Part shown: piece by piece, positions 6,638-21,716 of the stretch
Position numbering within the stretch: position 1 is the first letter of the stretch
Layout: each line of letters begins with the position of its first letter
NCBI GenBank assembly: GCA_947499635.1
Contig: CANMPD010000019.1
Location: forward strand, 1 to 56,499
Direction: 5' to 3'
Length of the DNA: 56,499 nucleotides
From: an uncultured Paracoccaceae bacterium
GTDB taxonomy: Bacteria > Pseudomonadota > Alphaproteobacteria > Rhodobacterales > Rhodobacteraceae
Position numbers and translations under genes: made by a program
The notes under the pieces: generated by a model
Database searches by the model: none
Seen by the model: the letters and a program-made list of their open reading frames with translations, nothing else
What the model was told of the DNA's origin: nothing

Positions 6638-7560
6638 TATGTGCTCCGATCATTGATTGTTTTCCGAAAGCTCAACTTAGGAAGAATGCGCCAACCAAGG
6701 TTGACGCCGAGGGTGGCAGCAAAGATCAGCACCACTCCGATCAGCTGCACCCAATTGAACAAAAAACCATAGAAGATGTAGTCCGTGACGATGGTGACGA
6801 TGGGGTAGATGAACGACAGCACTGCGATTGAATAGGAAGGAAGTCGTTGATAGGCAGAATAGTTCAAGCTGTACATGACGCCTGTGTTCACCACGCCGAG
6901 GGTCAGTAGGAAGATCCACGCACCCTCGCCAAGGGTCAGCTCTGAGAGCTGGGTAAATGGCAACAACAGAACGACGCCAAGCGACGTTTGCAAAAGCGCA
7001 ATTTTGATGCCCGAAGCGCTGCGCACATATTTCACGATGAGCGTGGAAGCTGAGTACATCAGGGCCGCGATAAGAGCATACAGGATGCCCAAGGCTTTGC
7101 TCGCTTCCATATGCAGCGAGTCAAAGCTGATTTCGACGACCAAGAGCATACCGATGAAGGCCAGAACAGTCCACGCGATGGAATGGCCCGTAAGCCGCTC
7201 TGAAAAGAGAAATGCCCCGACAAGGATGATGACGAAAGGCTTGATGTGGTAGACTACTGTGCCCAACGATAGGGAAATCGTCTGGTAGGACATGAACAGG
7301 AGGAGCCAGTTATAGACCAGACAAGCGCCACCGATACCTATCAGTATCCAATCTTTGCGCGTGATGCCGCGCAAAGAGAGATCGCCTGTCACCAGTGAGA
7401 TCAGAATCAGGCTAAGGGCTCCGATTAGGCACCGAAAGAAGACGATGTTCGTCGGCAATTGTCCGGATTCTACCACGAGTACGCCGATTGTCCCGGCGAT
7501 GCACATGGCGGAAATGAGTTGGACAACGCCAATTCGAAAACTGTGCTTATCAGGCGACAC
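6637..7560 (-). CDS. EamA/DMT-family transporter, probable exporter
   Basis: The 307-residue protein has ten predicted membrane helices in two EamA halves, as in RhtA/YdcZ-type drug/metabolite transporters. Motifs typical of the family include VYHIKPFVIILVGAFLFSER in the first half and SFIYPIVTIVTDYIFYGF in the second. Such proteins often export amino acids or related metabolites. Translation starts at GTG 7558-7560, inside the end of the preceding gene (11-base overlap), so the two are probably coupled. In this operon it most likely exports the product of the PanB-like and aminotransferase steps. Confidence 0.85.
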   Translation of the reverse strand: MSPDKHSFRIGVVQLISAMCIAGTIGVLVVESGQLPTNIVFFRCLIGALSLILISLVTGDLSLRGITRKDWILIGIGGACLVYNWLLLFMSYQTISLSLGTVVYHIKPFVIILVGAFLFSERLTGHSIAWTVLAFIGMLLVVEISFDSLHMEASKALGILYALIAALMYSASTLIVKYVRSASGIKIALLQTSLGVVLLLPFTQLSELTLGEGAWIFLLTLGVVNTGVMYSLNYSAYQRLPSYSIAVLSFIYPIVTIVTDYIFYGFLFNWVQLIGVVLIFAATLGVNLGWRILPKLSFRKTINDRST

Positions 7561-8536
7561 GGAGGCGTCTCCCCGACGAATACGCTGTCTCGCGCCATGG
7601 GTCAGTGCAGATCACTTGCCGCAAGTCTGTCTGGGTGAGCTTTGATACCGGCGAACGCGGGTAAGCCAGAGTAATGGCCTGCCGCATCAGCTCATACATC
7701 GAGGCGGTTAACGTCTCCTTGGTGTAGCATTCAGGGAAATCGGCTCTGGTCTTTGTTGCGGTATCCGGGAAGAAGCTGTTTTTGAAATCAGGCTTTATGA
7801 TCGAGTCCCAGACATTTAGAGACTGCCCGCCCCAATCCGACTGACCACTGAAGATGCTGTAAGACGGAATGCCGTGTAGAGATGGCCGACACAGGCATTG
7901 GTTCACAAATTCATTGACCCGTTCCAACACCAGACCGATGCTGCCAGCATCCCGGGCCATCCGTGCTTTGGCAAACAGATCCAAAGCCTCCTCGATGCTG
8001 TTGCCGACTGGACGGTTCTCGCCGTTTTGCGGGGTGTATCCGAGATGGCTAATGACCGGTATACCCGCGTTTGTAAGCGCGTTTACAATTTCAAAACGGT
8101 CGGGAGAGAATATCTCCAGCTTCACTGCATCCGCGCCAACGGCGACCATCTGGGAGGCGTTTTTAATCGCGTTTTCGGCATCTGCTGTCGATCCGTCGGG
8201 CATATCAGCCAGCACAAATGGGCGGATGTTTGCGGGGAAGCTCCGTGAGACCTCTTCTGCTACCTCTTTGGTGAGATCTTTCATTGTGTTGAAGAACTCA
8301 GCCTGAGCCGCCGGAGTTTCCAACGCAGTGGCGTTCTGTCCCATATGCGTCATCAGGTACGAATCCGAAATCATGATGCATTCCACCCGACAAGGCAGAC
8401 CTTCCTTGCGCAACTGCATCGCCGAGCTTGCGACGGCCGCGACTTCATAGTCGCGATACAGGTTGATTTTCAGGCGAGGGATCTCTCGGCCCTCCTTTGA
8501 CTGTTCAGCCAGAAATCCAAACAAGTTCTGAGACAT
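7550..8536 (-). CDS. PanB-like ketopantoate hydroxymethyltransferase family protein
   Basis: The 328-residue protein aligns with PanB, which adds a hydroxymethyl group from methylene-tetrahydrofolate to a 2-oxo acid. All residues known to bind metal or act in PanB can be placed: Asp58 (ISDSYLM, replacing VGDSLGM), Asp111 (LADMPDGS), Lys139 and Glu141 (VKLEI), His164 (VISHLGYTPQ) and Glu205 (LVLERV). It is longer than PanB (about 264) by some 80 C-terminal residues, and the signature around Asp58 is altered, so a different 2-oxo acid is likely. GGAGC precedes the ATG. Pantothenate synthesis is unlikely because no panC or panE lies nearby. Confidence 0.8.
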   Translation of the reverse strand: MSQNLFGFLAEQSKEGREIPRLKINLYRDYEVAAVASSAMQLRKEGLPCRVECIMISDSYLMTHMGQNATALETPAAQAEFFNTMKDLTKEVAEEVSRSFPANIRPFVLADMPDGSTADAENAIKNASQMVAVGADAVKLEIFSPDRFEIVNALTNAGIPVISHLGYTPQNGENRPVGNSIEEALDLFAKARMARDAGSIGLVLERVNEFVNQCLCRPSLHGIPSYSIFSGQSDWGGQSLNVWDSIIKPDFKNSFFPDTATKTRADFPECYTKETLTASMYELMRQAITLAYPRSPVSKLTQTDLRQVICTDPWRETAYSSGRRLRVA

Positions 8537-8550
8537 TTTCGTGCTCCAAA

Positions 8551-9747
8551 TTATGCCGCGATAGCCACGCGGGTTGAAAAAGCTTCGTTGATGATCTGAA
8601 TACTCTTCCTCAACAACTCACGTTCGACAGCCGTGAAGCAAAGTCGGGCATAGCTTTCCATGCCGGTTCCGAACGCCTGCCCAGGTGCGAGAGAAATGCC
8701 GTTTTCCAACAGTTCCTCGTAGAATGGCCTAAGGCCTGCCGGTCCAAGCGTCGAGAGATCGAGGAACAAATAAAACCCGCCCGAAAAACCCAGATGGGGA
8801 ACGATCAAGCACTCTTGAGCAATTTTTGCGCGTGCCAGCGTTTCGTCACGCTGTAACTGTAACTGCTCTGTCGGGGTCTTAAGCGCTTGCCACGCGCCGT
8901 ATTGTGATGGCGTTGCCACAGAATAAATGGTATGCAATCCGCGCTTCTGCGTATCCAATGCGCGCGAATTAGGGCTAATCAGGTAGCCAACCCGATACCC
9001 CGGCATGATGTAGCTTTTGGAGAAGCTGTAGATCGAGAAGATAATCTCATCGCCGCCGTCCAGATCTCGCGCGTCTATGAAACCGTGCTCAGAGTAGTCG
9101 TAGAACTCGTACGCGTTGTCTGCGACAAGCCAGATCCCTTTTTCATGGCAAAAGTTGACTAGTTCTTGCAGCTGCGCTCGGCTCATCGAATATCCGGTCG
9201 GGTTGTTCGGAGTGTTGAAATAAATGAGCCGCGTCTTGGCCGTTACGACGTTTTCAAGGTAGGCGCGCAAATCAAGGTTGGGATCTTCGCATAGGGCGAG
9301 AAACAAAGGGGCCTCACGAACCACAGCATTACAGGACTTCAATACGCCGCGCGCAAAAAGCCACTGAGGAGATAAGATCAACGCCTCATCACCTGGATTT
9401 AGGACAGAGTCTGCGGCGATCTTTAGGCCATGGGTTGCGCCAGAACAGATCATAAGTTGATCCATCAAAAAATTGCCGTAACCGCGCTTCAAGTGGGCGG
9501 ATTGGATGGCCTCTTTGAGCAACCCGATACCTTGCGGCGGGGCATGGACGTTGTGTTCGAGTTCGAATGCGCCCGCAGGCCACGATTTTACATCCGGGCA
9601 AGGTTGATAGGTGGTTTTTCCCTGATGTAGGCCCGCGATCTCGCTTGCATTAGCGCTTTTCAAGGCGGTTACGATGCTCTCAAAAACCGAGAACGGTACG
9701 TCATCAAGAGTCGTGGAAAATTTGCTGATGGCACTGAAATCCGTCAT
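8551..9747 (-). CDS. PLP-dependent class I/II aminotransferase
   Basis: This 398-residue fold-type I aminotransferase shows the Asn-Pro motif NTPNNPTGYS, the cofactor Asp in VADNAYEFYDY and the PLP lysine in SFSKSYIMPGYRVGY, with a C-terminal arginine region (YARLCFTA) for the substrate carboxylate. It opens the operon, with AAGG before the ATG and the hydroxymethyltransferase gene 14 bases downstream. The likely job is to interconvert an amino acid and the 2-oxo acid that the PanB-like enzyme uses or makes. Amino-acid specificity cannot be told. Confidence 0.88.
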   Translation of the reverse strand: MTDFSAISKFSTTLDDVPFSVFESIVTALKSANASEIAGLHQGKTTYQPCPDVKSWPAGAFELEHNVHAPPQGIGLLKEAIQSAHLKRGYGNFLMDQLMICSGATHGLKIAADSVLNPGDEALILSPQWLFARGVLKSCNAVVREAPLFLALCEDPNLDLRAYLENVVTAKTRLIYFNTPNNPTGYSMSRAQLQELVNFCHEKGIWLVADNAYEFYDYSEHGFIDARDLDGGDEIIFSIYSFSKSYIMPGYRVGYLISPNSRALDTQKRGLHTIYSVATPSQYGAWQALKTPTEQLQLQRDETLARAKIAQECLIVPHLGFSGGFYLFLDLSTLGPAGLRPFYEELLENGISLAPGQAFGTGMESYARLCFTAVERELLRKSIQIINEAFSTRVAIAA

Positions 9748-11215: not shown

Positions 11216-11989
11216 TCAAATGGATTGAACCACCGTCAAAGTGCATGCTGCGGCTATAAGCGCGACACCTACCTCTTGACGTCGCGCGGGCAAACCAAAC
11301 ATCCCACGGTCGAGAATTATCAAGACTGTAATGATAGCCATCCAAAATAAGTTTCCTGGGAAAAACACAAACATTAGGCACATCAACAGACCGCAACACC
11401 GAACACAATCAACACCATGTCGCAATCCCAATGTGAATTGGCTTTGCGACACTCCTGAACTGCAAAGTGAGCAGATTGGAGTTGGGGCAGATTTGAGCCG
11501 TGAAAACTGGAAAAAACCGATTATCAATAGTGTGCTCGCGCCAATAGACCAGCCGTTGAAATACAACCAATCACTATTCTTAGCTGCCAACTGCAACACA
11601 TAACCAAAGCCGTGTAATGCAATTCCGACAACACTCCATATGGTCGCGTATCCAAGCACAGCCATATAAGAAATTTTTTGATTGTGTTTAAGGCTAGAGA
11701 AAGCCACTGGTCCCATCATAGCGGCAAGCATCAACAACCAGCTTGTAAGTAAAGCTAGGGCTCCAATGATGCCCTCTTCAGCTAGGTTAATGCCACAAAT
11801 ATTTACGAGCACACCGGCCAAAGTCCAATCACCATGGTCCAGATATGGCGCATATCCCGAAAAAGTTATGGCCACGAGCATCAGCCAAGCACCTGCTGTA
11901 ATGCGCCAGCTGACATCTAACTTATGATCTAAAATAGCTGTAATCATGAACTGTTCCATCTTGTGGGCAGCGTTTAAAACGCCGACCAC
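11216..11989 (-). CDS. DUF2182-family membrane protein
   Basis: This is a membrane protein of up to 257 residues with about six helices. It fits the DUF2182 family, described as predicted metal-binding membrane proteins: SWLLMLAAMMGPVAFSS matches the WxxMxxAMMxP segment and LRHGVDCVRCCGLLMCLMF matches the G-x-x-x-C-x-G-C-C-W-x-LM segment. The conserved first cysteine of the second motif and the CC pair remain, while W is changed. The longest frame starts at GTG 11989; ATG at 11959 or 11947 is equally possible because none has a strong ribosome-binding site. It lies 15 bases after the TPR gene and is probably the last gene of the nitrile operon. A role in metal supply to nitrile hydratase is a guess from position. 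Confidence 0.7.
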   Translation of the reverse strand: MVGVLNAAHKMEQFMITAILDHKLDVSWRITAGAWLMLVAITFSGYAPYLDHGDWTLAGVLVNICGINLAEEGIIGALALLTSWLLMLAAMMGPVAFSSLKHNQKISYMAVLGYATIWSVVGIALHGFGYVLQLAAKNSDWLYFNGWSIGASTLLIIGFFQFSRLKSAPTPICSLCSSGVSQSQFTLGLRHGVDCVRCCGLLMCLMFVFFPGNLFWMAIITVLIILDRGMFGLPARRQEVGVALIAAACTLTVVQSI

Positions 11990-12004
11990 AAAAAAGGCGT
12001 AAGT

Positions 12005-13669
12005 TTAAGCAGCGCTTTTCGTACTGCAGAAGCACGAAGAGTAAACTTCCCGATCTGCTCGACTTAGGGCGAAGTCGAGCTGAGGTTTAATCATTGCCGC
12101 GCTCTTTGAATTGCCCATCGCGATATAACAATCGTAAAGTCCCTTTAGTGCCCAGACATTGTTCGGGTGGCGATTGGAGCGGATGCAGGTTTCGTCCATA
12201 CCAAGATCGGCTTCATAAGCTGCAGCAGCTTCTTCGAAGTGCCCTTGTTCTAACAATAGCGCACCAAGCGGGTGTCGGCTTGGCATCATCCAAGGCCAGG
12301 GTTCATCATAGGGCAGGGCGTCTTCCAGCGCGACGGCTTTGCGCAGGTGATCAAAGGCGACATCGTAATTACCTCGGTGGTACTCTACTTCCCCGTTTAG
12401 CATTTCGCGTGCAACTTTGAGAATTTGAATGCAGGCAACAACATGAATGTGCCGTGTTTCTGGAACCTTTGCCGCTGCGGTTTCAAATTTCTGGCGCGCT
12501 TGGTCTGCCTTATCGTGCTGTTTTAGAGCAGCATGTGCAATACCTTTGCCGTACCAGTTGAGCGCGGTTGTCATGGAATAATCATCGGCATGTTCTGGCA
12601 GAGGATCATCAATCAGATCCTGCCAACGACCAAAGCGGATCAACGCATGGGTTTTGATTGACATGTACCCTTCTAGCCAATCGGCCATGGGAGGATCTTC
12701 ACAACGGATCAACTCATCAGGGATTGTTTTCATCATACCTTCAACGGCTTCCATCGCTGGGCGGAATTGACCAAGGAACATCGCGCCGTAGAGTTTGAAG
12801 TGATAGTTGTGTACGCGATACATAGAATAGAAATTCATCGCACCGGATTTTTCCCAATAGATCTCGTCGGCAACGATCCCTTTTTGGTTCCAGGTAACGA
12901 CGTCTTGATAATTGCCGCAAAGGACGTCGATATGCGTTGCCATATGGGCCAAGTGGCCAGCAGAAGGTACCATCTCACGTAGCTCATCCGCATAACGCAA
13001 GGCCACTTCAGGGACCGCTGACATCTCCATAAGGTGGATGTAGAGGTGCAAAAGTCCGGGGTGGCGGGCAGGGCCAGCAGCCTCAACTTTGGCGATACCC
13101 TCTTCCAAAACACGGCGACATTCTAGGGTGTCGCCTGCTGGGTTTGGCTCACCTGTATGTGGATCCCACATTTGCCATGGTGTTCTGTTCATCATCGCTT
13201 CGGCGAATAATGTCGCCACATCAGAATCGTCAGGAAATGTAGTGTAAACGTTCCGCATTTCATTCGCATATGCGGCGGACCAAGTGTAAAGATCGGGAGC
13301 CGGTTCATTCGACTGGTAGCGACTTTCCAACGCTATGATCAGCGCTTTCTCAATATCTGTCGCGTCATCCATTGCCGCCTTGGCCTTTTCGATAGCCTCT
13401 CGAGATTTTACAAGCGTCTCTTGCACTTGTTCGGGGGTGAATAGCTCCCATGGTTTATTGTAGTTCGGTCCGATGATGTAGGCCAATCCCCAATGGGCCA
13501 TCGCACAGTTCGGATCAGCCTTCAGCGCGTGTTCAAAGCAAACGGCTGCCTCTTCATGATGATACCCAAAAATCCAATTCAAACCACGGTCAAACCATTT
13601 TTGTGCCTCGGCTGAAGATGTTGTGATTGGGCGGCTATAGGCCCCTAGGTCGTATGGATAATCGAGCAT
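12005..13669 (-). CDS. Tetratricopeptide-repeat protein
   Basis: This 554-residue protein is built largely of TPR-like helix pairs (QKWFDRGLNWIFGYHHEEAA, CFEHALKADPNCAMAHWGLA, LEQGHFEEAAAAYEADL). It has no signal peptide or membrane helix. A histidine-rich element (HLYIHLMEM, GHLAHMATHIDVL) is notable and could bind metal. The ATG at 13669 is chosen because GGAGGGG lies 7 bases upstream; the frame remains open for 31 more codons with no such site. It follows the amidase gene after 135 bases that contain two IclR-type palindromes, so it may have its own promoter. It may be a scaffold or metallochaperone for the nitrile hydratase; the sequence does not prove this. Confidence 0.75.
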   Translation of the reverse strand: MLDYPYDLGAYSRPITTSSAEAQKWFDRGLNWIFGYHHEEAAVCFEHALKADPNCAMAHWGLAYIIGPNYNKPWELFTPEQVQETLVKSREAIEKAKAAMDDATDIEKALIIALESRYQSNEPAPDLYTWSAAYANEMRNVYTTFPDDSDVATLFAEAMMNRTPWQMWDPHTGEPNPAGDTLECRRVLEEGIAKVEAAGPARHPGLLHLYIHLMEMSAVPEVALRYADELREMVPSAGHLAHMATHIDVLCGNYQDVVTWNQKGIVADEIYWEKSGAMNFYSMYRVHNYHFKLYGAMFLGQFRPAMEAVEGMMKTIPDELIRCEDPPMADWLEGYMSIKTHALIRFGRWQDLIDDPLPEHADDYSMTTALNWYGKGIAHAALKQHDKADQARQKFETAAAKVPETRHIHVVACIQILKVAREMLNGEVEYHRGNYDVAFDHLRKAVALEDALPYDEPWPWMMPSRHPLGALLLEQGHFEEAAAAYEADLGMDETCIRSNRHPNNVWALKGLYDCYIAMGNSKSAAMIKPQLDFALSRADREVYSSCFCSTKSAA

Positions 13670-13688
13670 GACAAGCCCCTCCAATTTG

Positions 13689-13791
13689 TTCTGTATTGTG
13701 GAATTAATTTCCATTTTTTTGATATTGGTGCGCAAAGCAAGAATTTTCTTTAGGATTTGCAAAAAATAAAATTACTTTCCGCATTGTGGAA
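13689..13791. promoter_or_regulatory. Two palindromic operator-like sites upstream of the TPR gene
   Basis: TTCCGCATTGTGGAA at 13777-13791 is a near-perfect palindrome (arms TTCCrCA/TGyGGAA). A related copy, TTCTGTATTGTGGAA, lies at 13689-13703. TTCC-N7-GGAA resembles sites bound by IclR-family regulators, and an IclR gene sits in the same cluster. Confidence 0.5.
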
Positions 13792-13804
13792 CATAAAGGT
13801 CAAG

Positions 13805-15250
13805 TTATGCGCTGACTGTGTCCGATGCACTAAATTTGGGCAGCGTTCGCCCCAACCCATCTTGGATCAAAGCAGACTCCAAACTACGCGCGAATCTCAA
13901 AAGCTTGGCGTCTGAATGGCGTGGGCCAACGATTTGGATGCCGAACGGCATAGCTTGATTGTCCAAACCGCACGGAAGCGTCACAACCGGACTTCCCGTC
14001 AAAGACAATGCCCAGGTAATCGCATACCAAGCATAATATTCCTTCAATGGCTTATCATTGATCGCCTCGGGATGATTGTCCCCCAATGGAAAAGGTGAAA
14101 CCGAAGTAGCGGGACAAATGAGGTAATCCACCTCATCGAAAATCACCTGAAACCGGCGATAGATTTGAGTATGTGCCGCGTCAGCACGCGCTGTATCCGC
14201 TAGGCTCAGCGATTTAGCCTCTAGGATATTGTTTCGCACATTTTGTCCAATCATATCGGGTTGGCTTTCCGCCAGCTCCCCGTAAGCAGCATAGAGGCTT
14301 TCCGCCCTTAGCACACGAAAGACCTCGGCGGCGTCTGATAAATCAACATCCAGAGCAACCGCTGTTTTGAAGTGTTTACTGATTACCGGTTGGCGGGCCT
14401 TAAAAAGCGCGGCAATCTCGCTATCGACTTCCGCGACATTCAAATCAGTTGAAAACCCGATACGTGAATGTGCCAAATCTTCAATTGAATGGAAGTCAGC
14501 GTACTCAATATCCAAATTGGGAGAGCAAAGCGGGTCACGGGTATCAAAGCCAGAAATCGCGGACAACATAAGCGTGAGATCTTCTACGCTGCGTGCCATC
14601 GGCCCATCCGTCCAAAGGTGCGAAAACCCCGAGACATGGCTGCGCGATGGAACAATCCCGGGTGAGGGGCGCATGCCCACAATACCACAAAATGAGGCGG
14701 GAATTCGCAAGCTTCCACCAAGATCGGATCCTGATGCCAGCGGGGCCATATTGCTGGCTAAACCAGCAGCTGACCCTCCAGAGGAGCCGCCGGAAGTGAG
14801 GGTTGGTTTGTACGGATTACCCGTTGCGCCGAACACGAGATTGGAGGTGTTGGCGCCTGCACCGAACTCTGGTGTGTTGGTTTTACCCAAAACAATTGCA
14901 CCAGCGGCGCGTAAGCGTTCGACGATAATGTCGTCATGATTCGGCACATGGGCCTCAAAGCATCGACTGCCAAAGGTTGTACGCAACCCTTTGGTCCGGC
15001 TTAGGTCTTTGACCAGAACTGGCAGGCCGTGCAACGGCGGTAAGGCATTGCCTGCCTGCACCGCGTGATCCGCTATTTTCGCTTTACTGCGGGCATCCTC
15101 AAAGTTGGTGGTAATCACCGCATTTACGAGGTAGTTCCGCTCTTCAATGCGAGCGATGCAGGCTTCGAGCAATGCGCTTGGCATCAATTCACGAGCCCCA
15201 ATTTGACGGCGTGCTTCGATAGCACTTAATTCTGCAGGTGTATCTATCAT
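13805..15250 (-). CDS. Amidase (amidase signature family)
   Basis: The 481-residue enzyme hydrolyses an amide to acid and ammonia. The Ser-Ser-Lys triad is visible: Lys81 in LPVLVKDLSRTKG, the cis-Ser at about 157 in SGGSSGGSAAG and nucleophile Ser180 in SGSDLGGSLRIPA. It has no signal peptide and should be cytoplasmic. The ATG overlaps the stop of the nitrile hydratase alpha gene (ATGA), so the two are translationally coupled. Nitrile hydratase and amidase form the standard two-step nitrile pathway, which makes the amide product of the upstream genes its likely substrate. Confidence 0.93.
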   Translation of the reverse strand: MIDTPAELSAIEARRQIGARELMPSALLEACIARIEERNYLVNAVITTNFEDARSKAKIADHAVQAGNALPPLHGLPVLVKDLSRTKGLRTTFGSRCFEAHVPNHDDIIVERLRAAGAIVLGKTNTPEFGAGANTSNLVFGATGNPYKPTLTSGGSSGGSAAGLASNMAPLASGSDLGGSLRIPASFCGIVGMRPSPGIVPSRSHVSGFSHLWTDGPMARSVEDLTLMLSAISGFDTRDPLCSPNLDIEYADFHSIEDLAHSRIGFSTDLNVAEVDSEIAALFKARQPVISKHFKTAVALDVDLSDAAEVFRVLRAESLYAAYGELAESQPDMIGQNVRNNILEAKSLSLADTARADAAHTQIYRRFQVIFDEVDYLICPATSVSPFPLGDNHPEAINDKPLKEYYAWYAITWALSLTGSPVVTLPCGLDNQAMPFGIQIVGPRHSDAKLLRFARSLESALIQDGLGRTLPKFSASDTVSA

Positions 15251-15870
15251 AGGTCTTCTTTGGCCAAAGCAGGGACCACTCCAATCATGCTGTCACGAGT
15301 CACAAGTTCTGCAAGTTGCTCTTCAGACCAGCCTTCTGTTCTCTCTGGGCGTTTAGGCACAACAAGATAGCGCATATCGGCGCTACTGTCATGCACGCGC
15401 ACTTCGACTGTTTCGGGCAGGGTGGTGCCAAATTCAGCAAGAACCTTTCGCGGGTTTTGAACCACATCTGATCTGTAGGCGCGGCTTTTGTACCAATCGG
15501 GAGGCAACCCAAGAAGTGGCCACGGATAGCACGAGCATAGGGTGCAAACGACAACGTTGTGCACTGCGTCCGTGTTCTCCAAGGCGATCAGATTAAGCCA
15601 AGTAGGCTCTAACCCGATGGATTTCGCCGCAGCTGTCGCATCGCGCCGCATGAGGTCCAGATAGGCCGGATCAGACCAGGCTTTTGCCACCATGCGCGCG
15701 CCATTATGCGGCCCGCGATCATCCATCATCCGGTAGGTTTTATGCAATTCTGCCTGCGTGATTACGTCCTTCTCGATCAGAAGCTCACGCAAGGCCACCT
15801 CTAATAAACGGTATTCGGTAAAGGGACCGTCTTCTTCATCTGGCTGGTTGGGATGTGTGTGATCATGCAT
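15247..15870 (-). CDS. Nitrile hydratase alpha subunit, cobalt type (or thiocyanate hydrolase gamma)
   Basis: This 207-residue subunit carries the metal-binding claw VVCTLCSC at residues 108-114 (Cys109, Cys112, Cys114), where two cysteines are normally oxidised. Threonine after the first cysteine is the hallmark of cobalt enzymes (iron enzymes have Ser). YPWPLLGLPPDWYKS and YRSDVVQNPRKVLAEFG follow as in the family. ATG 15870 is chosen over the upstream TTG because it overlaps the stop of the preceding gene as TAATG and removes seven atypical residues. With the beta subunit split in two, the set matches thiocyanate hydrolase and toyocamycin-type nitrile hydratase; the aldoxime dehydratase nearby favours a nitrile. 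Confidence 0.92.
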   Translation of the reverse strand: MHDHTHPNQPDEEDGPFTEYRLLEVALRELLIEKDVITQAELHKTYRMMDDRGPHNGARMVAKAWSDPAYLDLMRRDATAAAKSIGLEPTWLNLIALENTDAVHNVVVCTLCSCYPWPLLGLPPDWYKSRAYRSDVVQNPRKVLAEFGTTLPETVEVRVHDSSADMRYLVVPKRPERTEGWSEEQLAELVTRDSMIGVVPALAKEDL

Positions 15871-16160
15871 TAGTCTTCGGGCTCCAGCCAATGTTCAAAA
15901 ATCTCTACCTCGAGCGTATCAAGAGGGGCTCCCGTATAATCGGGCCAAATCTTTTGCATGGGCAGCCGGACCCGATAAAGCGGCACGGCCGGTTGGCCAT
16001 CCCGGCGGTAAGCCAGCTCTTCAGGGTTCGCAAAACGGCCGCAATAGCGTTCAATTTCCCCAGTTAGGCCACGGGTATAAAATGGCGTGCGACAATGCCC
16101 GATTGGGTAGGCATCACGAATACGCACTTTATCGCCAACACTTAACATAGGATCAGTCAT
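15870..16160 (-). CDS. Nitrile hydratase beta subunit, C-terminal half as a separate protein
   Basis: This 96-residue protein equals the C-terminal SH3-like domain of nitrile hydratase beta: GDKVRIRDAYPIGHCRTPFY, TRGLTGEIERYCGRFANPEE, PLYRVRLPMQKIW and a C-terminal FEHWLEPED. In two-subunit enzymes this domain is fused to the N-terminal helical part; here it is its own gene, as in thiocyanate hydrolase ScnA. It overlaps the preceding gene by eight bases and ends in a TAATG junction with the alpha gene, so the three subunits are probably made in balanced amounts. Confidence 0.88.
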   Translation of the reverse strand: MTDPMLSVGDKVRIRDAYPIGHCRTPFYTRGLTGEIERYCGRFANPEELAYRRDGQPAVPLYRVRLPMQKIWPDYTGAPLDTLEVEIFEHWLEPED

Positions 16161-16485
16161 GAGAAGCGAGCTTTACCCGTACCGTTTCGACACGTGCACC
16201 AATTTCGGCGTCTGTCACGATGCCGCGTTCCAACATGATCTGAAGCATGGCCCAGATCCATTGTTCATAGTATGATAGACGCTGGTATTTTTCTTCGCCC
16301 AGCCCTTCGACCGCGCGACGTAGCTCATCAACTCGCAACAGCCCTTTTGTTGCTAATAATTCGCGCACCGCATGCACGCGTTTTTCCCAAGGTTCATAGT
16401 CATATTCATCAGGGGCGAAGGGTTCGCACAACACACCACCCACGTCATGAACGCCGCGGAAATCTAAAAGAGATTTACTGACCAC
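16153..16485 (-). CDS. Nitrile hydratase beta subunit, N-terminal half (or accessory protein)
   Basis: The 110-residue protein matches the helical N-terminal domain of nitrile hydratase beta: LLDFRGVHDVGGVLCEPFAP near the start (the GxxDxGG region), FEPWEKRV-like YEPWEKRVHAVRELL and YYEQWIWAMLQIMLERGI. It also resembles the small activator proteins of cobalt nitrile hydratases, which share this fold. Because the matching C-terminal half is the next gene, a true structural subunit (as ScnB) is the simplest reading; it could also assist metal loading. Translation starts at GTG 16483-16485, overlapping the stop of the enoyl-CoA hydratase gene by one base. Confidence 0.85.
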   Translation of the reverse strand: MVSKSLLDFRGVHDVGGVLCEPFAPDEYDYEPWEKRVHAVRELLATKGLLRVDELRRAVEGLGEEKYQRLSYYEQWIWAMLQIMLERGIVTDAEIGARVETVRVKLASHD

Positions 16486-17234
16486 TAGGACCGCCTCCGT
16501 TTTTCGCGCGCCTCTTTAACTGCGCGTTGATAGTCTAAAATTCGCCCCTTAAGGCCCGGGCGTCCTGCCGTTGCCACTACAGAGGCGATGTCTTGGGCGC
16601 GTGTGTCAACCGTCGTCAGGTTCCGCATTTGCTGTGTACTGAACGCCGACATCTGGACCGTGCGCGCGGCAAGAGCATCAAGCTTATCAGGCCACTCCGT
16701 TTGATCTGCGATTTGTGTCGCCAAGCCGACTGTTTTAGCCTCCTGCGCGAGTACGGTACGCCCGTCTAATAGAATATCTAATGCGGCATCTTTACCAATC
16801 AGACGCTCAAGGCGTCGTGTTCCCAGAGCGAGCTCAAAATTCCACCCTGGAAACCGCAGCTTGGCCTCAGGTGCAGCAAGGCGGTAGGTGCAGGCCGCAA
16901 ATAAATCAGCACCTGCGCCGATGATATGCCCCTGTGCCAAAGCAACTGTGGGAAAGGGCGCGTGATGGACGGCCTGCAACATGGTCTCAATACGTAAGAA
17001 CTGCCAAAGCAGGTCTGCATCCGACAGCGCGCCCACGTCCGACAGGTCAAAACCCGCGCAGAAGTTTTTACCCTCCCCTTTGATCACAGCCAAACGCACG
17101 GAACTCGCGGAGGTAATCGTCGAATAGATCGTCTCGGCTATGTTCAAAGACAAAGCGTTTGAGGCCTTGGGGCGATTAAGCGTTAGGGTTAGAACACCGT
17201 CATCAAGCGTAGTGGTGACAACGGGCGCAGTCAT
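16485..17234 (-). CDS. Enoyl-CoA hydratase/isomerase family protein
   Basis: This 249-residue crotonase-fold protein shows the CoA-binding and oxyanion-hole segments KGEGKNFCAGFDLSDVG and GHIIGAGADLFAACTYRLA. In hydratases the second segment normally reads GGGCEL, with a catalytic Glu; here it is Asp. The second catalytic Glu (in FGQPE) is also not conserved (LRFPGWNFEL). A standard hydration is therefore doubtful, and another crotonase reaction on an acyl-CoA is possible. It sits between the CoA-transferase gene (ATGA overlap) and the nitrile hydratase genes, so it should act on the acyl-CoA made from the nitrile-derived acid. Confidence 0.83.
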   Translation of the reverse strand: MTAPVVTTTLDDGVLTLTLNRPKASNALSLNIAETIYSTITSASSVRLAVIKGEGKNFCAGFDLSDVGALSDADLLWQFLRIETMLQAVHHAPFPTVALAQGHIIGAGADLFAACTYRLAAPEAKLRFPGWNFELALGTRRLERLIGKDAALDILLDGRTVLAQEAKTVGLATQIADQTEWPDKLDALAARTVQMSAFSTQQMRNLTTVDTRAQDIASVVATAGRPGLKGRILDYQRAVKEAREKRRRS

Positions 17235-18391
17235 ACGGCGGCTTTCGCTGTCGATGCGGTGTGCAATGCACCCAAGACCGCTTCAGTGTCGCTCCCCAAG
17301 CTCGGCGAGGTCTTGCCAATTGGATTGGGTTTCCCGTCAAAGATGAGCGGTGATCCGAAGGTTTTGGTTTCCACGCCATTAGGCAAAGTCAGATCTTGAA
17401 CATAGCCCATATGTGCCACTTGAGGGTCTGCCAATGCTTGGGAATATGTATTGATCGGACTTGATGGAACGCCAGCTGCCGCAAAAGCATCCAGCCAATA
17501 TTGATACGGTTGAAGTGCAAAGATTTCCTCTAGAATTTTCATCAATTCTTGCTGATTGGCGGCCCTTTGGCTCGGGTTTGCAAAGCGGTCTTCAGTGACA
17601 AGATCCTGCCGCCCGACAACCTCACAGACCGAGGCCCATAGCTTGTTGTTGCCCGCTGCCATTCCAAAATACCCATCCTGCGCCTTGAAGGCCTGATAGG
17701 GGGCGTTGCGTGGATGGGCGGACCCCAATTTTCGCGGATCTTTTCCCGTGCCAAAGTATTCGCTGGTTTGTAACGCGCCAATCGCAAGGGTCGCGCCTAG
17801 CATTGCAACATCAAGATGTGTGCCCTGGCCTGTTTCCTTTGCGCTGTGAAGCGCGGACACAAGGCCATATGCGCCGTATAATCCGGATACGAAATCACAC
17901 AAGGGAACGCCGCATTTTACAGGTGCCCCACCGGGTTCGCCTGTAACGCTCATGACGCCAGCCATTGCCTGCATCGTTAAGTCAAATCCTCCTTCACGCG
18001 AACGTGGGCCGGATTGGCCAAATGCTGAGATAGAGCAGTAAATCAGCTGTGGCTTCAATTTGGACATCTCGTTGTATCCGATCCCGTTGCGATCCATCAC
18101 GCCGGGGCGAAAGTTCTCGATCACGGCATCCGCAGACAGAATTATATCGCGCGCGGCTTGCACGCCTTCATCAGATTTCAGATCAAGCACAACAGATTTC
18201 TTCCCGCGGTTGATCGACGCAAAGTTCTGTGAATACCCGTCCGAAATCGGGGGCCAAGACCGCATCGCGTCACCTTGCGCACGCTCTACTTTAATCAGAT
18301 CGGCCCCCATGTCTGCCAACAACATCCCACAAAACGGCCCAGCGGCCACCTCACAAAATTCAATTATTTTAATATCTTGAAGAGGTCGCAT
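17231..18391 (-). CDS. CaiB/BaiF-type (family III) CoA-transferase
   Basis: This 386-residue enzyme of the formyl-CoA transferase/CaiB family moves CoA between carboxylic acids. The start MRPLQDIKIIEFCEVAAGPF, the NRGKKSVVLDLK segment, the catalytic Asp at about 166 (GVPLCDFVSGLYGAYG) and the GTHLDVAMLG segment match the family. ATG 18391 is chosen because AGGGA lies just upstream; a TTG six codons earlier is less likely. It is the first gene of the overlapping nitrile operon and lies 75 bases after the IclR gene. It probably activates the acid released by the amidase. Confidence 0.9.
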   Translation of the reverse strand: MRPLQDIKIIEFCEVAAGPFCGMLLADMGADLIKVERAQGDAMRSWPPISDGYSQNFASINRGKKSVVLDLKSDEGVQAARDIILSADAVIENFRPGVMDRNGIGYNEMSKLKPQLIYCSISAFGQSGPRSREGGFDLTMQAMAGVMSVTGEPGGAPVKCGVPLCDFVSGLYGAYGLVSALHSAKETGQGTHLDVAMLGATLAIGALQTSEYFGTGKDPRKLGSAHPRNAPYQAFKAQDGYFGMAAGNNKLWASVCEVVGRQDLVTEDRFANPSQRAANQQELMKILEEIFALQPYQYWLDAFAAAGVPSSPINTYSQALADPQVAHMGYVQDLTLPNGVETKTFGSPLIFDGKPNPIGKTSPSLGSDTEAVLGALHTASTAKAAV

Positions 18392-18466
18392 ATTTTTTCC
18401 CTTTAGCAATACGTAACCAATCGCAGAACAAATTTGCTCTACGTCGACGCCGTCGGTGTTGTTTTT

Positions 18467-19309
18467 TTAGGCGGCTGAGTGTGCCCTGGAAGATATTGTT
18501 TCAGAACGCAATGCACTGGCTCCTAGCATCTCCCACGCCTGCTCTGAAGAACCCAAGGCGAGCGACAATTGCATTGCCTGGGACACCACATTCGGGGCGA
18601 TGGTTTCTAATTCTTGGGCATCAAGGCGACTGGCTGGGCCGGAAATTCCGATTGCGGCAACCACCTTGCCATTCCCGTCAATAATCGGTGCGGCCAATCC
18701 CAGAACATCGGTTCGCCATTCACCGCGGTTGATAGCATATTTTTGGGTTCGTATGCGCCACGCTTCGGTCTCAAATCTCTCAAACGTACTGATCGTCTTT
18801 TGGGTAAACACTTCGGCACCCTCCAGGGAGCTCCGCCATACCCCAGGATCTTCGAACGCCAACATTGCCTTGCCTGTTGCCGTGCAATAGGCGGGCGCAC
18901 GGCCACCCAATTGTGTGTATGCTCTGATCGGCTCTGAGCTCTCGATTTTATCGAGGTAAAGAACTTCTCCGCGTTGGAGTTCTGAAAGGTGGACTGTTTC
19001 GCGCGTTATGAGTGCCAAATTCTCCATCATTGGTCGCGCCAGTTGGCGGACGTTAAGTCGAGAAACGACTAAGCTACCATATTCCCACAAGCGGAGACTT
19101 GCTCGATAGTTGCCCGACCCGCTTGTTTCAACGTAACCCAGCTCGATAAAAGTTTGCAGCAACCGATGAACATTACTTTTCCCTAGGCCAGTGCCCTCAG
19201 ACAGAGCCGTCACCCCCATTGGGCGTTCGCTGCGAGCCAATACCTCGAGGAGGTTGAACGCTTTTACTACCGATTTATCCAAAACTTCCTCCAATAGGGC
19301 GCGGATCAC
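18467..19309 (-). CDS. IclR-family transcriptional regulator
   Basis: The regulator of about 271-280 residues has an N-terminal winged helix (SVVKAFNLLEVLARSERPMG, GLGKSNVHRLLQTFIELGYV) and a C-terminal IclR effector domain (YCTATGKAMLAFEDP, NRGEWRTDVLGLAAPIID, AAIGISGPASRLD). The longest frame starts at GTG 19309, but a TTG at 19280-19282 preceded by GGAGGA gives the family-typical start DKSVVKAF and is also plausible. It lies upstream of and parallel to the CoA-transferase/nitrile hydratase operon and divergent from the aldoxime dehydratase gene, so it probably controls both. Confidence 0.9.
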   Translation of the reverse strand: MIRALLEEVLDKSVVKAFNLLEVLARSERPMGVTALSEGTGLGKSNVHRLLQTFIELGYVETSGSGNYRASLRLWEYGSLVVSRLNVRQLARPMMENLALITRETVHLSELQRGEVLYLDKIESSEPIRAYTQLGGRAPAYCTATGKAMLAFEDPGVWRSSLEGAEVFTQKTISTFERFETEAWRIRTQKYAINRGEWRTDVLGLAAPIIDGNGKVVAAIGISGPASRLDAQELETIAPNVVSQAMQLSLALGSSEQAWEMLGASALRSETISSRAHSAA

Positions 19310-19538
19310 AACTCAATACTATACTCGAAGTGCATCGTGTCAATATGTTTCCATTATTTGATGTAGTGTTCTAAAATTAAGAAACCCCAGCCCCTGGCAA
19401 TGATACGTACGCTTAAGTTACTCTATTATTGGTAACGAATGCATATTGGAATTTCATATTATGAATTGTTATTGACATTTTTTGGAAAACGATTCTAAAT
19501 AATGGAAATTCAAACACGCTACACTCAGAGGAAATAAT
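19310..19538. promoter_or_regulatory. Divergent control region with paired inverted 12-mers
   Basis: TTTCCATTATTT at 19348-19359 recurs as its exact reverse complement at 19497-19508, and partial similarity continues beyond (GT-x-TTC-x-AAAA). The repeats flank a TTGACA at 19472-19477 with an AT-rich -10-like stretch at 19495-19502. This layout suits an IclR-type regulator acting on both the regulator gene and the dehydratase transcript. Confidence 0.55.
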
Positions 19539-19628
19539 ATGACCCTTTTAGGATTCTTGTCCGCTTTTGCGATCATAGTGGCCGCGGCATGTCTTACCAT
19601 TTCCATCGGAACCTTGGTGTTGTTGTGA
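19539..19628 (+). CDS. 29-residue hydrophobic micro-ORF in the aldoxime dehydratase leader
   Basis: ATG 19539 follows AGAGGAAATAAT, a good ribosome-binding site, and opens a 30-codon frame: MTLLGFLSAFAIIVAAACL then TISIGTLVLL and TGA. The peptide is one continuous hydrophobic helix with no charge. It lies after the inverted repeats and before a terminator-like hairpin and the dehydratase gene. It may be a membrane micropeptide or a leader peptide whose translation affects the hairpin. No homologue is recognised. Confidence 0.5.
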   Translation: MTLLGFLSAFAIIVAAACLTISIGTLVLL

Positions 19629-19646
19629 GGGTGCGGCCTCTACCTT

Positions 19647-19690
19647 GGGTGGCTCTTGGACGCACTATTGTGCTGGCCACCCTAATTTTT
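19647..19690 (+). terminator. Terminator-like hairpin 16 bases before the aldoxime dehydratase gene
   Basis: GGGTGGC (19647-19653) pairs with GCCACCC (19676-19682), enclosing a second stem GCAC-tatt-GTGC (19662-19673), and TAATTTTT follows at 19683-19690. This has the form of an intrinsic terminator, but it lies between the micro-ORF and the dehydratase start, so it may attenuate dehydratase expression. Confidence 0.55.
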
Positions 19691-19706
19691 CGGGTGATAC
19701 TTTAGC

Positions 19707-20735
19707 ATGAATAACGCGAAACCCGCCCGTATTTACCCTATGCATAAGCCTGACGGCCATTGTCCTGTGGTGCAAAGATACTCTTCATCGCTGGATTCTT
19801 GGGTTAGCAATGTTCGGGTCGTCGTGTTTGGCCAACAGGGCCAAGTAGACGGTTTCCAAAGCCTTGTGCGCCACCTCTTTGCGAGCCAAAATGCCCCGGA
19901 TCATCGCGATGCTGCACAGTATACCGACCCCCAAAGCGTAAAAAATATTTTCACGGTTGCCTATTGGCTTGACCCCATCAGTTATAACGCATGGCGCGAC
20001 AGTTTCGATGCGTGGCTTGCAACACAAAACCCGAAAGAGGCAGGTAACGGCTATTGGTTTGAGACCTTTTCAGTGCCTACACCTTACCGCGAGACGATCG
20101 CATTCAAAGAGTACCTTCGTGGTCTGTCGGCCTGTCCTTATTCCACAATCCAACCGATTGAAGAAAGCGCGTATTGGGGTGCAGCACGAGATCGCTTTGC
20201 GGCCTCGGCATATGACAGTCTTGGGCCTGCTGATGATCAATGCCTGAACGCCGACACGGATCGCGACACACGTGGCAAGGTATTACGCGTCGAAGGCTTT
20301 CCAAACAATCTTTGTGTCATTCGATCTGGTGTCTCATGGGCGTCATGCGGCGAAGAGCAACTGGACAGCTATCAAAGGAACTTAGCCCCTAAACTTGACG
20401 CAGGCATGCAGTACTTGCGCGACAACCCTGCGGAAACTGGCTGTGCATCGCTTCGGCAAGTCAGCTATTTGAACACCGACGGGACCGAAGCTCCGGAAGC
20501 TTTCTCATTAGGTTTTTTCCTGAGCTTTAGTCATCTTGAACAATGGGCCGAACACCATCCGTCCCACTTGGCGATTTATACCAAAGCACTCGCCGAGCGA
20601 AAAAAATATCAGGAAAATCTGGAGCTCAGAACATATCATGAAATTTATGTTTTGAGTGACGACGCTGAATTTCTATATTTCAACTGCCACCCAAGTACCG
20701 GGCTACTCCCTTACTTTGAAAACAGTCAGGTTTAA
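19707..20735 (+). CDS. oxd: Aldoxime dehydratase (heme enzyme)
   Basis: The 342-residue protein matches heme aldoxime dehydratases such as OxdA and OxdRE, which turn an aldoxime into a nitrile and water. Visible landmarks are Arg161/163 in SAYWGAARDRF, Ser207 in VIRSGVSW, the probable heme-ligand His287 in HPSHLAIYTKAL and the distal His311 in LRTYHEIYVL, followed by DAEFLYFNCHPSTGLLPYFE. The N-terminus PARIYPMHKPDGHCP is also family-typical. The start is the ATG at 19707; the ribosome-binding site is poor, consistent with control by the upstream hairpin. It stands divergent from the nitrile hydratase/amidase operon, so the cluster holds the complete aldoxime-nitrile pathway. Aliphatic or aromatic preference cannot be told. 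Confidence 0.92.
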   Translation: MNNAKPARIYPMHKPDGHCPVVQRYSSSLDSWVSNVRVVVFGQQGQVDGFQSLVRHLFASQNAPDHRDAAQYTDPQSVKNIFTVAYWLDPISYNAWRDSFDAWLATQNPKEAGNGYWFETFSVPTPYRETIAFKEYLRGLSACPYSTIQPIEESAYWGAARDRFAASAYDSLGPADDQCLNADTDRDTRGKVLRVEGFPNNLCVIRSGVSWASCGEEQLDSYQRNLAPKLDAGMQYLRDNPAETGCASLRQVSYLNTDGTEAPEAFSLGFFLSFSHLEQWAEHHPSHLAIYTKALAERKKYQENLELRTYHEIYVLSDDAEFLYFNCHPSTGLLPYFENSQV

Positions 20736-20738
20736 TCA

Positions 20739-21716
20739 ATGAAATACTGGCAAGCTGCGCACCTCATGCCAGGTGTGTTTATCTGTTTGATCGTTGCAAC
20801 AGCAGCCCGGTTTCTTTCAGATCACTACGCTGCACCAACGATGCTATTTGCTCTTCTTCTTGGGTTGAGTCTGCATTTCTTGGTGGAAGATGAGAAAGCC
20901 GCAGCGGGAATAAAGTTCGCGGCGGCGGATCTGTTAAAATTGGGCGTTGCATTGCTGGGCCTGCGGATAACGCTAACCGACATTGGCGATTTAGGGGCAG
21001 AAACAATTGGCCTCGTTATTGGGGGCGTGATCTTCACCATATCGATTGGGATTGCCGTCTCGTTGCTATTTGGAAAAAATATCAAGTTTGGCGTTTTATC
21101 CGGCGGGGCCGTCGGTATCTGCGGGGCTTCAGCGGCCTTGGCTATCTCAGCGGTGTTGCCCGCGTCTGAAACGCGTGAACGCGATACCGCCTTTATTGTT
21201 GTCGCCGTCACAACGCTCTCTACAGTTGCAATGATTCTTTATCCAATTTTGGGACAGGGCTTGGGATTGGACGACCAGCACATTGGTATCCTTTTGGGGT
21301 TAACAATCCATGATGTTGCGCAAGTTGTCGGGGCAGGGTTTTCTGTTTCAGAAGAGGCGGGCAACACTGCTACCCTTATTAAATTGTTTCGCGTGTCACT
21401 TCTTGTGCCTGTTATCATACTGATTTCTTTTGGATTTCGGAACCAAACGACACAAAATAACCGCAGCGGCGTTCCTTGGTTCGTTTATGGGTTCGCATTC
21501 GCGATCGTGATCAACAGCCTGGGATTTCTGCCTGAACCGATCAGGGCGTTGCTGGCGACAATATCAACATGGCTGTTGGTGATCGGCATTGTCGGGATCG
21601 GCATGAAAACCTCACTGAAAAGCTTAGGCAAAGTCGGGGGGGCGGCGCTCGGTATCGTTTGCTTAGAGACGGTGCTGCTTTTTGCAGTAGTGGCAATCAT
21701 CCTCGCACTTTCGTAA
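20739..21716 (+). CDS. YeiH/UPF0324-family membrane transporter
   Basis: The 325-residue protein has about ten helices and the conserved blocks of the YeiH family (putative sulfate exporters): LLKLGVALLGLRITL, LSGGAVGICGASAALAIS, TIHDVAQVVGAGFSVS and a C-terminal GIVGIGMKTSLKSLG. It begins three bases after the dehydratase stop, so both are on one transcript. The family substrate is not established beyond sulfur-related guesses. In this setting it could move an aldoxime-pathway metabolite or relieve a toxic by-product. Confidence 0.85.
   Translation: MKYWQAAHLMPGVFICLIVATAARFLSDHYAAPTMLFALLLGLSLHFLVEDEKAAAGIKFAAADLLKLGVALLGLRITLTDIGDLGAETIGLVIGGVIFTISIGIAVSLLFGKNIKFGVLSGGAVGICGASAALAISAVLPASETRERDTAFIVVAVTTLSTVAMILYPILGQGLGLDDQHIGILLGLTIHDVAQVVGAGFSVSEEAGNTATLIKLFRVSLLVPVIILISFGFRNQTTQNNRSGVPWFVYGFAFAIVINSLGFLPEPIRALLATISTWLLVIGIVGIGMKTSLKSLGKVGGAALGIVCLETVLLFAVVAIILALS

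Follow-up and report, generated by a model that had tools for sequence, protein, structure and literature searches.

The window analysed here is a stretch of 56,499 nucleotides of contig CANMPD010000019.1 from an uncultured Paracoccaceae bacterium, whose genome (G000: 3.6 Mb, 50 contigs, 98% complete) is referred to below as the host genome, and positions 11,216 to 20,735 of it hold genes for an aldoxime dehydratase, a nitrile hydratase (NHase) with its beta chain split in two, an amidase and a CoA-transferase. On the minus strand, read from 19309 down to 11216, the order is an IclR-type regulator (18467..19309; PF01614 (IclR_C) 140.5 bits, PF09339 64.6 bits), a class III (CaiB-type) CoA-transferase (17231..18409; PF02515 (CoA_transf_3) 402 bits), a crotonase-fold protein (16485..17234; PF00378 (ECH_1) 93 bits), the separate NHase subunits betaN (16153..16485, 110 residues; PF21006, NHase_beta_N, 70.3 bits) and betaC (15870..16160, 96 residues; PF02211, NHase_beta_C, 71.4 bits, with a GHCRTP motif), NHase alpha with the metal motif VCTLCSC (15247..15891; PF02979 263 bits, and its place in the tree described below), an amidase of the amidase-signature family (13805..15250; PF01425 334 bits), a TPR-repeat protein recognized by TPR families (12005..13762, with the probable true start at ATG 13669) and a PpoB2/DUF2182 membrane protein (11216..11989; PF09948 98.6 bits). 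The heme aldoxime dehydratase gene, oxd1, is divergent on the plus strand (19707..20735; PF13816 (Dehydratase_hem) 250.7 bits, curated cut-off 25) and is adjoined by a gene for a YeiH-type membrane protein (20739..21716, plus strand; PF03601 220.8 bits). The Pfam scores of the window proteins lie far over the curated cut-offs, and the genes that the original prediction named at this place, including the beta chain split into 110 and 96 residues, are present as intact, overlapping or closely packed open reading frames (ORFs). That prediction left out the TPR and PpoB2 genes of the conserved unit, and of the two genes that it called divergent only oxd is so, since the IclR gene lies ahead of CaiB on the strand that carries the NHase operon.

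Neighbouring frames from CaiB to the amidase overlap by 1 to 22 bases, which suggests a single transcript, although the overlap of 22 shrinks with an inner-ATG start of alpha; the amidase-TPR spacing is about 135 bases if the TPR protein starts at 13669. In GC content the cluster (0.509) and the remainder of the window (0.512) are alike, so that base composition does not point to a recent import. From sequence comparison, we consider it likely that the locus is an aldoxime catabolic unit controlled by IclR, built around a three-subunit NHase that could mature without a dedicated activator, and shared between lineages. In the pathway that we propose, Oxd would dehydrate an aldoxime to the nitrile (R-CH=NOH -> R-CN), the Co-type betaN-betaC-alpha NHase would hydrate the nitrile to the amide (R-CN -> R-CONH2), the amidase would convert R-CONH2 to ammonia and R-COOH, the CaiB-type transferase would move CoA onto R-COOH, and the divergent crotonase would use R-CO-SCoA in a reaction that is not a classical hydration. 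Both these activities and the substrate are predicted from the observed genes, their conservation and co-occurrence, and their motifs.

The assignment of the first enzyme draws on solved structures. Oxd1 aligns over nearly its full length with phenylacetaldoxime dehydratase 7f2y (170.7 bits), matches 3w08 and 3a15 as well, and the motifs around the heme and the catalytic residues align with those of 7f2y and 3w08. It keeps the RDR, RSG, HPxH and YHE motifs, which we take to hold Arg178, Ser219, His299 and His320 of OxdA, and it scores 199 bits against NF050090, the model of the aliphatic enzyme, for which the cut-off is 600. The amidase keeps its VKD, GGSSGG and GSDLGGSLR motifs, which are presumably the catalytic ones. 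The CoA-transferase has the class III family domain, and its Asp in GVPLCDF aligns with 4ed9 and is, we assume, equivalent to the catalytic Asp169 of formyl-CoA transferase; its closest solved chains are 4ed9 (276 bits) and the succinate-hydroxymethylglutarate CoA-transferase 9br6 (268.5 bits).

The crotonase-fold protein lacks the two hydratase glutamates. In alignment with 5zai, the first hydratase glutamate is replaced by Asp, and the place of the second, in a stretch three residues shorter, is not occupied by Glu (we take these positions to be Glu144 and Glu164 in rat numbering). With both catalytic glutamates missing, the protein is probably not an enoyl-CoA hydratase, and a normal enzyme of that kind was rejected as an assignment; its closest solved chain, 3isa (162.8 bits), is named only as putative. 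Feeding of the acids to central metabolism stays a supposition of the original prediction; activation by a CoA-transferase is plausible, the CaiB-crotonase pair being conserved here and recurring in another catabolic setting. Similar crotonases occur on plasmids of Bradyrhizobium sp. Ash2021 (45% identical) and Paraburkholderia graminis (38%), two of the 14 plasmid records with such a crotonase, where they are grouped with a CoA-transferase gene (49% identical in Ash2021, 59% in P. graminis) and ring-hydroxylating dioxygenase genes; in P. graminis the crotonase and CoA-transferase genes overlap. Our reading is that CaiB and the crotonase may form a portable acyl-CoA module with a chemistry of its own.

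The identity of the three-subunit enzyme was assessed through profile scores, motifs and a phylogeny. We take VCTLCSC to be the Co-type form of the alpha metal motif, and cobalt as the metal of the window enzyme, named in the original prediction, is predicted from this motif by itself. CTLCSC is present in all 123 alpha sequences compared and so does not set the window alpha apart. The locus lacks the single beta chain and dedicated activator of a canonical two-subunit Co-type NHase. Its motifs (GHCRTP, SYYEQW and YPWPLLGLPPDWYKS) agree at several places of the pocket with two-subunit NHases (GHxRxP, YY-x-x-W, YPW and LPPxWYKS), and most other split sequences have YPR where the window has YPW.

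A split beta and the gene order betaN-betaC-alpha, which we take to be that of scnBAC too, would also fit a thiocyanate hydrolase, or a related enzyme for small nitriles, with oxd as an unrelated neighbour, and in the alpha tree two sequences annotated scnC do group on the split-beta side. We regard this explanation as very improbable: the window alpha scores 212.2 bits against the thiocyanate hydrolase model TIGR03887, 79 bits below the cut-off of 291.45; the pocket motifs are NHase-like, whereas the two loci annotated scnC, which are the only two reference loci, have PYNARW, FYTRTQ and LGHSPYWYRA; and in two lineages the enzyme comes linked with oxd, the amidase and CaiB. Thiocyanate hydrolase was accordingly rejected as its identity on the score of the hidden Markov model (HMM) and the pocket motifs. 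A search with TIGR03887 at E <= 1e-80 in 398 genomes of the phylum gave no match, which is not proof of absence. Plasmids L135 and L136 carry an annotated thiocyanate hydrolase gamma subunit, with the beta halves in one fused SH3-like protein, a further betaN-like ORF after the fused beta (28 and 31 bits) and adjoining CbtAB or HupE genes.

The phylogeny, a check that had been proposed together with a count of co-occurring oxd genes, drew in part on a genome scan with the window alpha, which returned 480 encoding stretches, of which the best 80 were kept. Of these 80 relatives, 78 encode betaN and betaC in separate ORFs, and in the other two (L047 and L075) part of beta lies beyond the contig end; a frameshift or assembly error as the source of the split beta was rejected on this count. 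With the window and two plasmid loci of the order betaC-alpha-betaN, the 78 loci make up 81 split rows, and the alpha tree of 123 rows further holds two unclassed rows, two rows annotated scnC with a fused beta and 38 fused-beta rows. The split, unclassed and scnC rows are separated from the 38 fused-beta rows by a branch with support of 100/98, in a tree whose bootstrap had not settled (0.975) and which has several long branches. An arrangement in which 26 split rows are held together without the scnC rows was not rejected (26 versus 13 rows, p-AU 0.33, computed on 39 of the 123 rows), and whether the scnC rows are nested inside the split clade is unsure. On both plasmids L138 and L141, with the order betaC-alpha-betaN, betaN occupies the place where an activator gene often sits.

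The 80 loci, being those most closely akin to the window, do not measure how common the split form is. In a draw from the family, the 30 best-scoring NHase loci were all two-subunit with an activator, and among 20 further loci hand-picked down the listed rows 16 were two-subunit and four split, all four being among the five lowest-scoring picks. Among the rows sampled, then, the split beta is a minority beside two-subunit NHases in the family, and the notion that it is the usual form there was rejected. In many of loci L012-L083, the split-beta NHase lies at a shared chromosomal place in Loktanella/Yoonia-type genomes, with the same gene families on both sides and no window-type amidase listed nearby.

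The split enzymes also differ from fused ones in their association with activator genes. In a search with one query at a 40-bit threshold, which misses some distant activators, a linked activator was found at none of the 81 split loci versus 33 of 40 fused loci, and the 20 further family loci gave 0 of 4 split versus 12 of 16 fused. When TIGR03889 was searched against the whole genomes of 37 split-beta carriers, seven had a match at E <= 0.001, six of them over the cut-off; six of the seven matches share a contig with an additional alpha, and the seventh (G428) is located close to the beginning of another contig. The other 30 genomes, some of which are incomplete metagenome-assembled genomes (MAGs), gave no TIGR03889 match. 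One of the block-carrying relatives described below (G398, locus L008) has the whole block, a single alpha and no activator match; the genome of another (G394, locus L004) has three NHase alpha matches and no activator match. The host genome itself encodes, on contig C9 (L003 5134-9432), a second, two-subunit NHase with its own activator, together with an amidase and a HIUase/transthyretin-like gene.

The window hydratase can probably mature without a dedicated activator, and betaN probably doubles as a cobalt and subunit-swapping chaperone, by analogy with the enzyme of Streptomyces canus CGMCC 13662. In the excerpts of PMC7329996, that NHase is described as AnhD-AnhE-AnhA, encoded in the order anhD-anhE-anhA without an activator gene, and AnhD, which is homologous to the beta N-terminus, is reported to be both a metal chaperone and a swapping chaperone. 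The Discussion of the same excerpts cites two enzymes that are active without their activator and a report that alpha of the toyocamycin enzyme is active alone, and Co-type NHases elsewhere are described with an activator (PMC3511329, excerpts). The activator model TIGR03889 recognizes the window betaN itself, if weakly and below its cut-off (19.7 bits, E 6e-4, cut-off 46). Thiocyanate hydrolase and toyocamycin NHase had been named as the known cases of a split beta; the list was correct as far as it went but incomplete, as it should also include S. canus (PMC7329996, excerpts) and many marine Alphaproteobacteria.

Evidence for a tie between this enzyme and aldoximes comes from the few relatives that keep its neighbours. 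The full block CaiB-ECH-betaN-betaC-alpha-amidase-TPR-PpoB2 was found in six of the 80 fetched loci (L004-L009). Apart from a weak crotonase match in one of them, the other 74, some represented by short stretches, gave no match at E <= 1e-5 to the window amidase, Oxd, CaiB, IclR, TPR or PpoB2. Five of the block loci, from genomes that bear the names Rhodobacteraceae or Pelagimonas, have alpha identities of 90-95%, and the sixth, L009, binned as a Gammaproteobacteria MAG, has 73%. Oxd was then searched for in 36 genomes, those of the six block loci and of 30 others among the 80 that were chosen for spread; it was present in all six block genomes plus the host genome (7/7) and in 0/30 of the other split-beta genomes. 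The hypergeometric value is 1e-7, computed as if these close relatives were independent, which they are not. In the family draw of 394 genomes, NHase alpha was found in 202 and an Oxd match in four, three of them over the cut-off; a full-length, unbroken Oxd occurs in the host genome and in G127, by its coordinates the genome of L006, and the partial matches are fragments in G370, one with a stop, and 59 positions in G188. The only other genome of the host genus in the draw (G293) gave neither Oxd nor NHase alpha. Oxd1 is 54% identical to Oxd2, the second copy in the host genome, 48% to the L009 enzyme and 33% to the one from Pantoea, and one Bradyrhizobium plasmid stretch with an Oxd relative has other neighbours. 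Taken with the similar palindromes at the oxd and TPR promoters described below, the 7/7 versus 0/30 distribution bears out the predicted link of the split enzyme to an aldoxime pathway.

The surroundings of oxd in the relatives are themselves partly conserved. The divergent oxd-iclR arrangement occurs in the window, L007, L008 and L009, and YeiH lies beside oxd1 in L004, L005, L007 and L008. The contig of L004 reads catalase, YeiH, oxd1, oxd2, GST, LysR, TRAP genes of two kinds (with NMT1-type and DctP-type binding proteins), nitrilase, TauE, amidase, a second IclR gene and the block, and L005 has the same ORF order in the stretch read. In the host genome, contig C7 (L120 6547-13940), apart from the window, carries oxd2, DctPQM-type TRAP genes, LysR, TauE and a nitrilase (CN_hydrolase) in which Glu, Lys and Cys motifs are present. 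With NHase plus amidase and a nitrilase both present, nitriles would have two outlets.

This gene content bears on two other functions for the island. The locus could be a general nitrile and amide scavenging operon that supplies nitrogen, with oxd an optional addition and CaiB-crotonase serving another acid: L006 has lost oxd1 yet retains a complete NHase operon, L004 and L006 carry TRAP transporter genes and an additional amidase upstream, and the Bradyrhizobium and Paraburkholderia stretches read hold a related CaiB-crotonase pair but no NHase. We think this unlikely, since an Oxd is retained in all seven block genomes and is absent from the 30 other split-beta genomes. Slightly less probable still is an island for detoxification of aldoximes and nitriles, not carbon-catabolic, in which the CoA part is incidental; a catalase gene after YeiH, itself after oxd1, in the window and L004, and the GST gene in the L004 island, would suit it, but detoxification alone is hard to square with CoA-transferase and crotonase frames that overlap each other and the NHase genes.

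A further link between oxd and the NHase locus is suggested by palindromes at the oxd and TPR promoters. The iclR-oxd gap of 397 bases contains a putative oxd promoter, found by eye at 19472..19507 on the plus strand (TTGACA at 19472, TAAATA at 19496, N18), which is conserved in L007 and L008 with N17 and is overlapped by the operator-like palindrome TTCTAAATAATGGAA (19493-19507). Between this promoter and oxd lies an unannotated ORF for a hydrophobic product of 29 residues (19539..19628, plus strand) with a ribosome-binding-like site, a similar form of which is present in six of the seven block genomes, the window included, and was not seen in L009; in L006 it is kept upstream of YeiH. Two more operator-like palindromes, one proximal to the TPR start (13689..13703) and one distal (13777..13791), 88 bp apart, have equivalents in the relatives. 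An imperfect site upstream of iclR (19369..19383), with one mismatch to the pattern TTCYAN5TRGAA, is weak, as the whole window holds 11 such one-mismatch sites.

TTCYAN5TRGAA was read off the oxd promoters and matches the window once, versus 0.24 expected. TPR-side sites of the relatives were not used in building it, and it occurs in the amidase-TPR gap twice in L006, L007 and L008 and once in L004; the 74 other loci contain two matches in 1.18 Mb. A refined pattern, TTCYRNWWWNYRGAA, was widened post hoc to take in the TPR-side sites. It has six sites in the host genome (control, four): three belong to the cluster (13689, 13777 and 19493), a fourth precedes the second NHase operon, and the other two lie elsewhere; it has no match in the 1.18 Mb of the 74 other loci. 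In all seven block genomes it is found upstream of oxd1 and in or near the amidase-TPR gap, the oxd-side match of L006 lying upstream of the remaining small ORF, and in L004-L006 it additionally precedes the TRAP genes and CaiB; the second TPR site of L009 possibly falls within the called TPR frame. The site ahead of the second NHase operon, at position 8476 of contig C9, may instead be a LysR box, a LysR gene starting 16 bases further on. As the adjacent regulator, IclR is the natural candidate for these palindromes, and it would probably control oxd and TPR-PpoB2, and possibly its own operon, through 15-bp palindromes of the TTC-N9-GAA type.

The TPR gene is conserved in the six block loci and is followed by PpoB2 in all of them, with a score of only 54 bits in L009. 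Plasmid relatives of the TPR protein gave no clear role in the one neighbourhood looked at; PpoB2, whose Pfam label is copper chaperone, possibly has a role in metal supply. Beyond the cluster, positions 5618-9747 of the window (minus strand) hold a run of epimerase, EamA transporter, ketopantoate hydroxymethyltransferase-like and aminotransferase genes.

Several observations weigh against an IclR-controlled aldoxime unit with an activator-free hydratase. The window alpha, at 246.7 bits, falls 3 bits short of the TIGR01323 cut-off for NHase alpha (249.85), and the activator on contig C9 could serve the window NHase in trans. In L004 and L005 some 14.7 kb separate oxd1 from CaiB, in L006 oxd1 has been lost and only oxd2 is left on the contig, and the second Oxd gene of the host genome lies near a nitrilase gene. 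As five of the six block genomes are closely related, the co-occurrence counts as about two independent lineages. TPR and PpoB2 stand in the conserved unit with no role assigned. As regards regulation, TTCYAN5TRGAA is not rare in the host genome (seven sites versus 16 for the reversed control), the refined pattern was fitted partly to the sites that it counts, which makes the three-of-six count in the cluster and the binomial figure partly circular, and the palindromes are linked to IclR by neighbourhood only. We nevertheless favour the aldoxime catabolic unit.

A wider proposal, which we put forward tentatively and with rather less than even confidence, is that an activator-free branch of three-subunit NHases, common in Alphaproteobacteria and with betaN as both subunit and its own cobalt chaperone, was captured in a marine lineage, together with a CoA-transferase and a non-hydratase crotonase, into an IclR-controlled island for natural aldoximes in which nitriles leave by two parallel routes, one through NHase and amidase and one through nitrilase. 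With this locus, Oxd-based aldoxime catabolism in marine Rhodobacteraceae gains a specific set of genes and a predicted operator. It also places the split-beta NHase, which has been described as exceptional, among many relatives, most of them without a genome-wide activator match; this wealth of natural split-beta enzymes makes cobalt insertion by a structural subunit testable, and activator-free Co-type NHases would be handy biocatalysts. The crotonase step, in turn, points to unexplored acyl-CoA chemistry.

Among known systems, the S. canus NHase is the closest described enzyme and is like the window enzyme in its betaN-betaC-alpha order, the lack of an adjoining activator gene, the Co-type motif and the homologous beta halves (PMC7329996, excerpts), a likeness of gene order and published description. 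It hydrates acetamiprid, thiacloprid and BN and not indole-3-acetonitrile, and in contrast to the window the excerpted text has no occurrence of 'aldoxime' and mentions no Oxd or CaiB module. Thiocyanate hydrolase ScnABC shares a beta of two subunits (solved chains 2dd4_A and 2dd4_B), and scnC rows fall on the same side of the tree; it differs in pocket motifs, in the sub-cut-off HMM score of the window alpha, and in the fused beta of the two scnC plasmid loci. The second NHase of the host genome resembles the window in its Co-type alpha motif, a nearby amidase and a palindrome-like site upstream, and departs from it in being two-subunit, with a fused beta, a dedicated activator and a position on the other branch of the alpha tree. 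The NHase of Roseobacter sp. CCS2 (L035) has a split beta and lies on the same side of the alpha tree, whereas the amidase, Oxd and CaiB of the window had no match in its fetched stretch. In 2012 the beta of this strain 'appeared truncated' and that of another strain was used (PMC3323583, excerpts); as CCS2 is our L035, with a split beta, we infer that the split is what those authors saw, and offer this reading of the published observation.

No paper among the open-access literature searched was found to join an aldoxime dehydratase with a three-subunit nitrile hydratase, or an NHase with CoA transferase, enoyl-CoA hydratase and amidase. Closest in gene content are the Rhodococcus and Pseudomonas clusters (PMC8955678, excerpts) and a plasmid of Pantoea sp. 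At-9b, which, like the window, bring Oxd, NHase and amidase together. The former have a two-subunit Fe-type NHase with activator, and the Pantoea plasmid a two-subunit NHase with an accessory protein and CbtAB genes, in contrast to the three-subunit enzyme of the window, and the CoA-transferase-crotonase pair of the window was found neither in the clusters of the PMC8955678 excerpts nor in the Pantoea stretch. The kind of pathway is thus known from these systems, and its present assembly, joining an aldoxime dehydratase to a split-beta NHase and a CoA-transferase-crotonase module, seems to be new.

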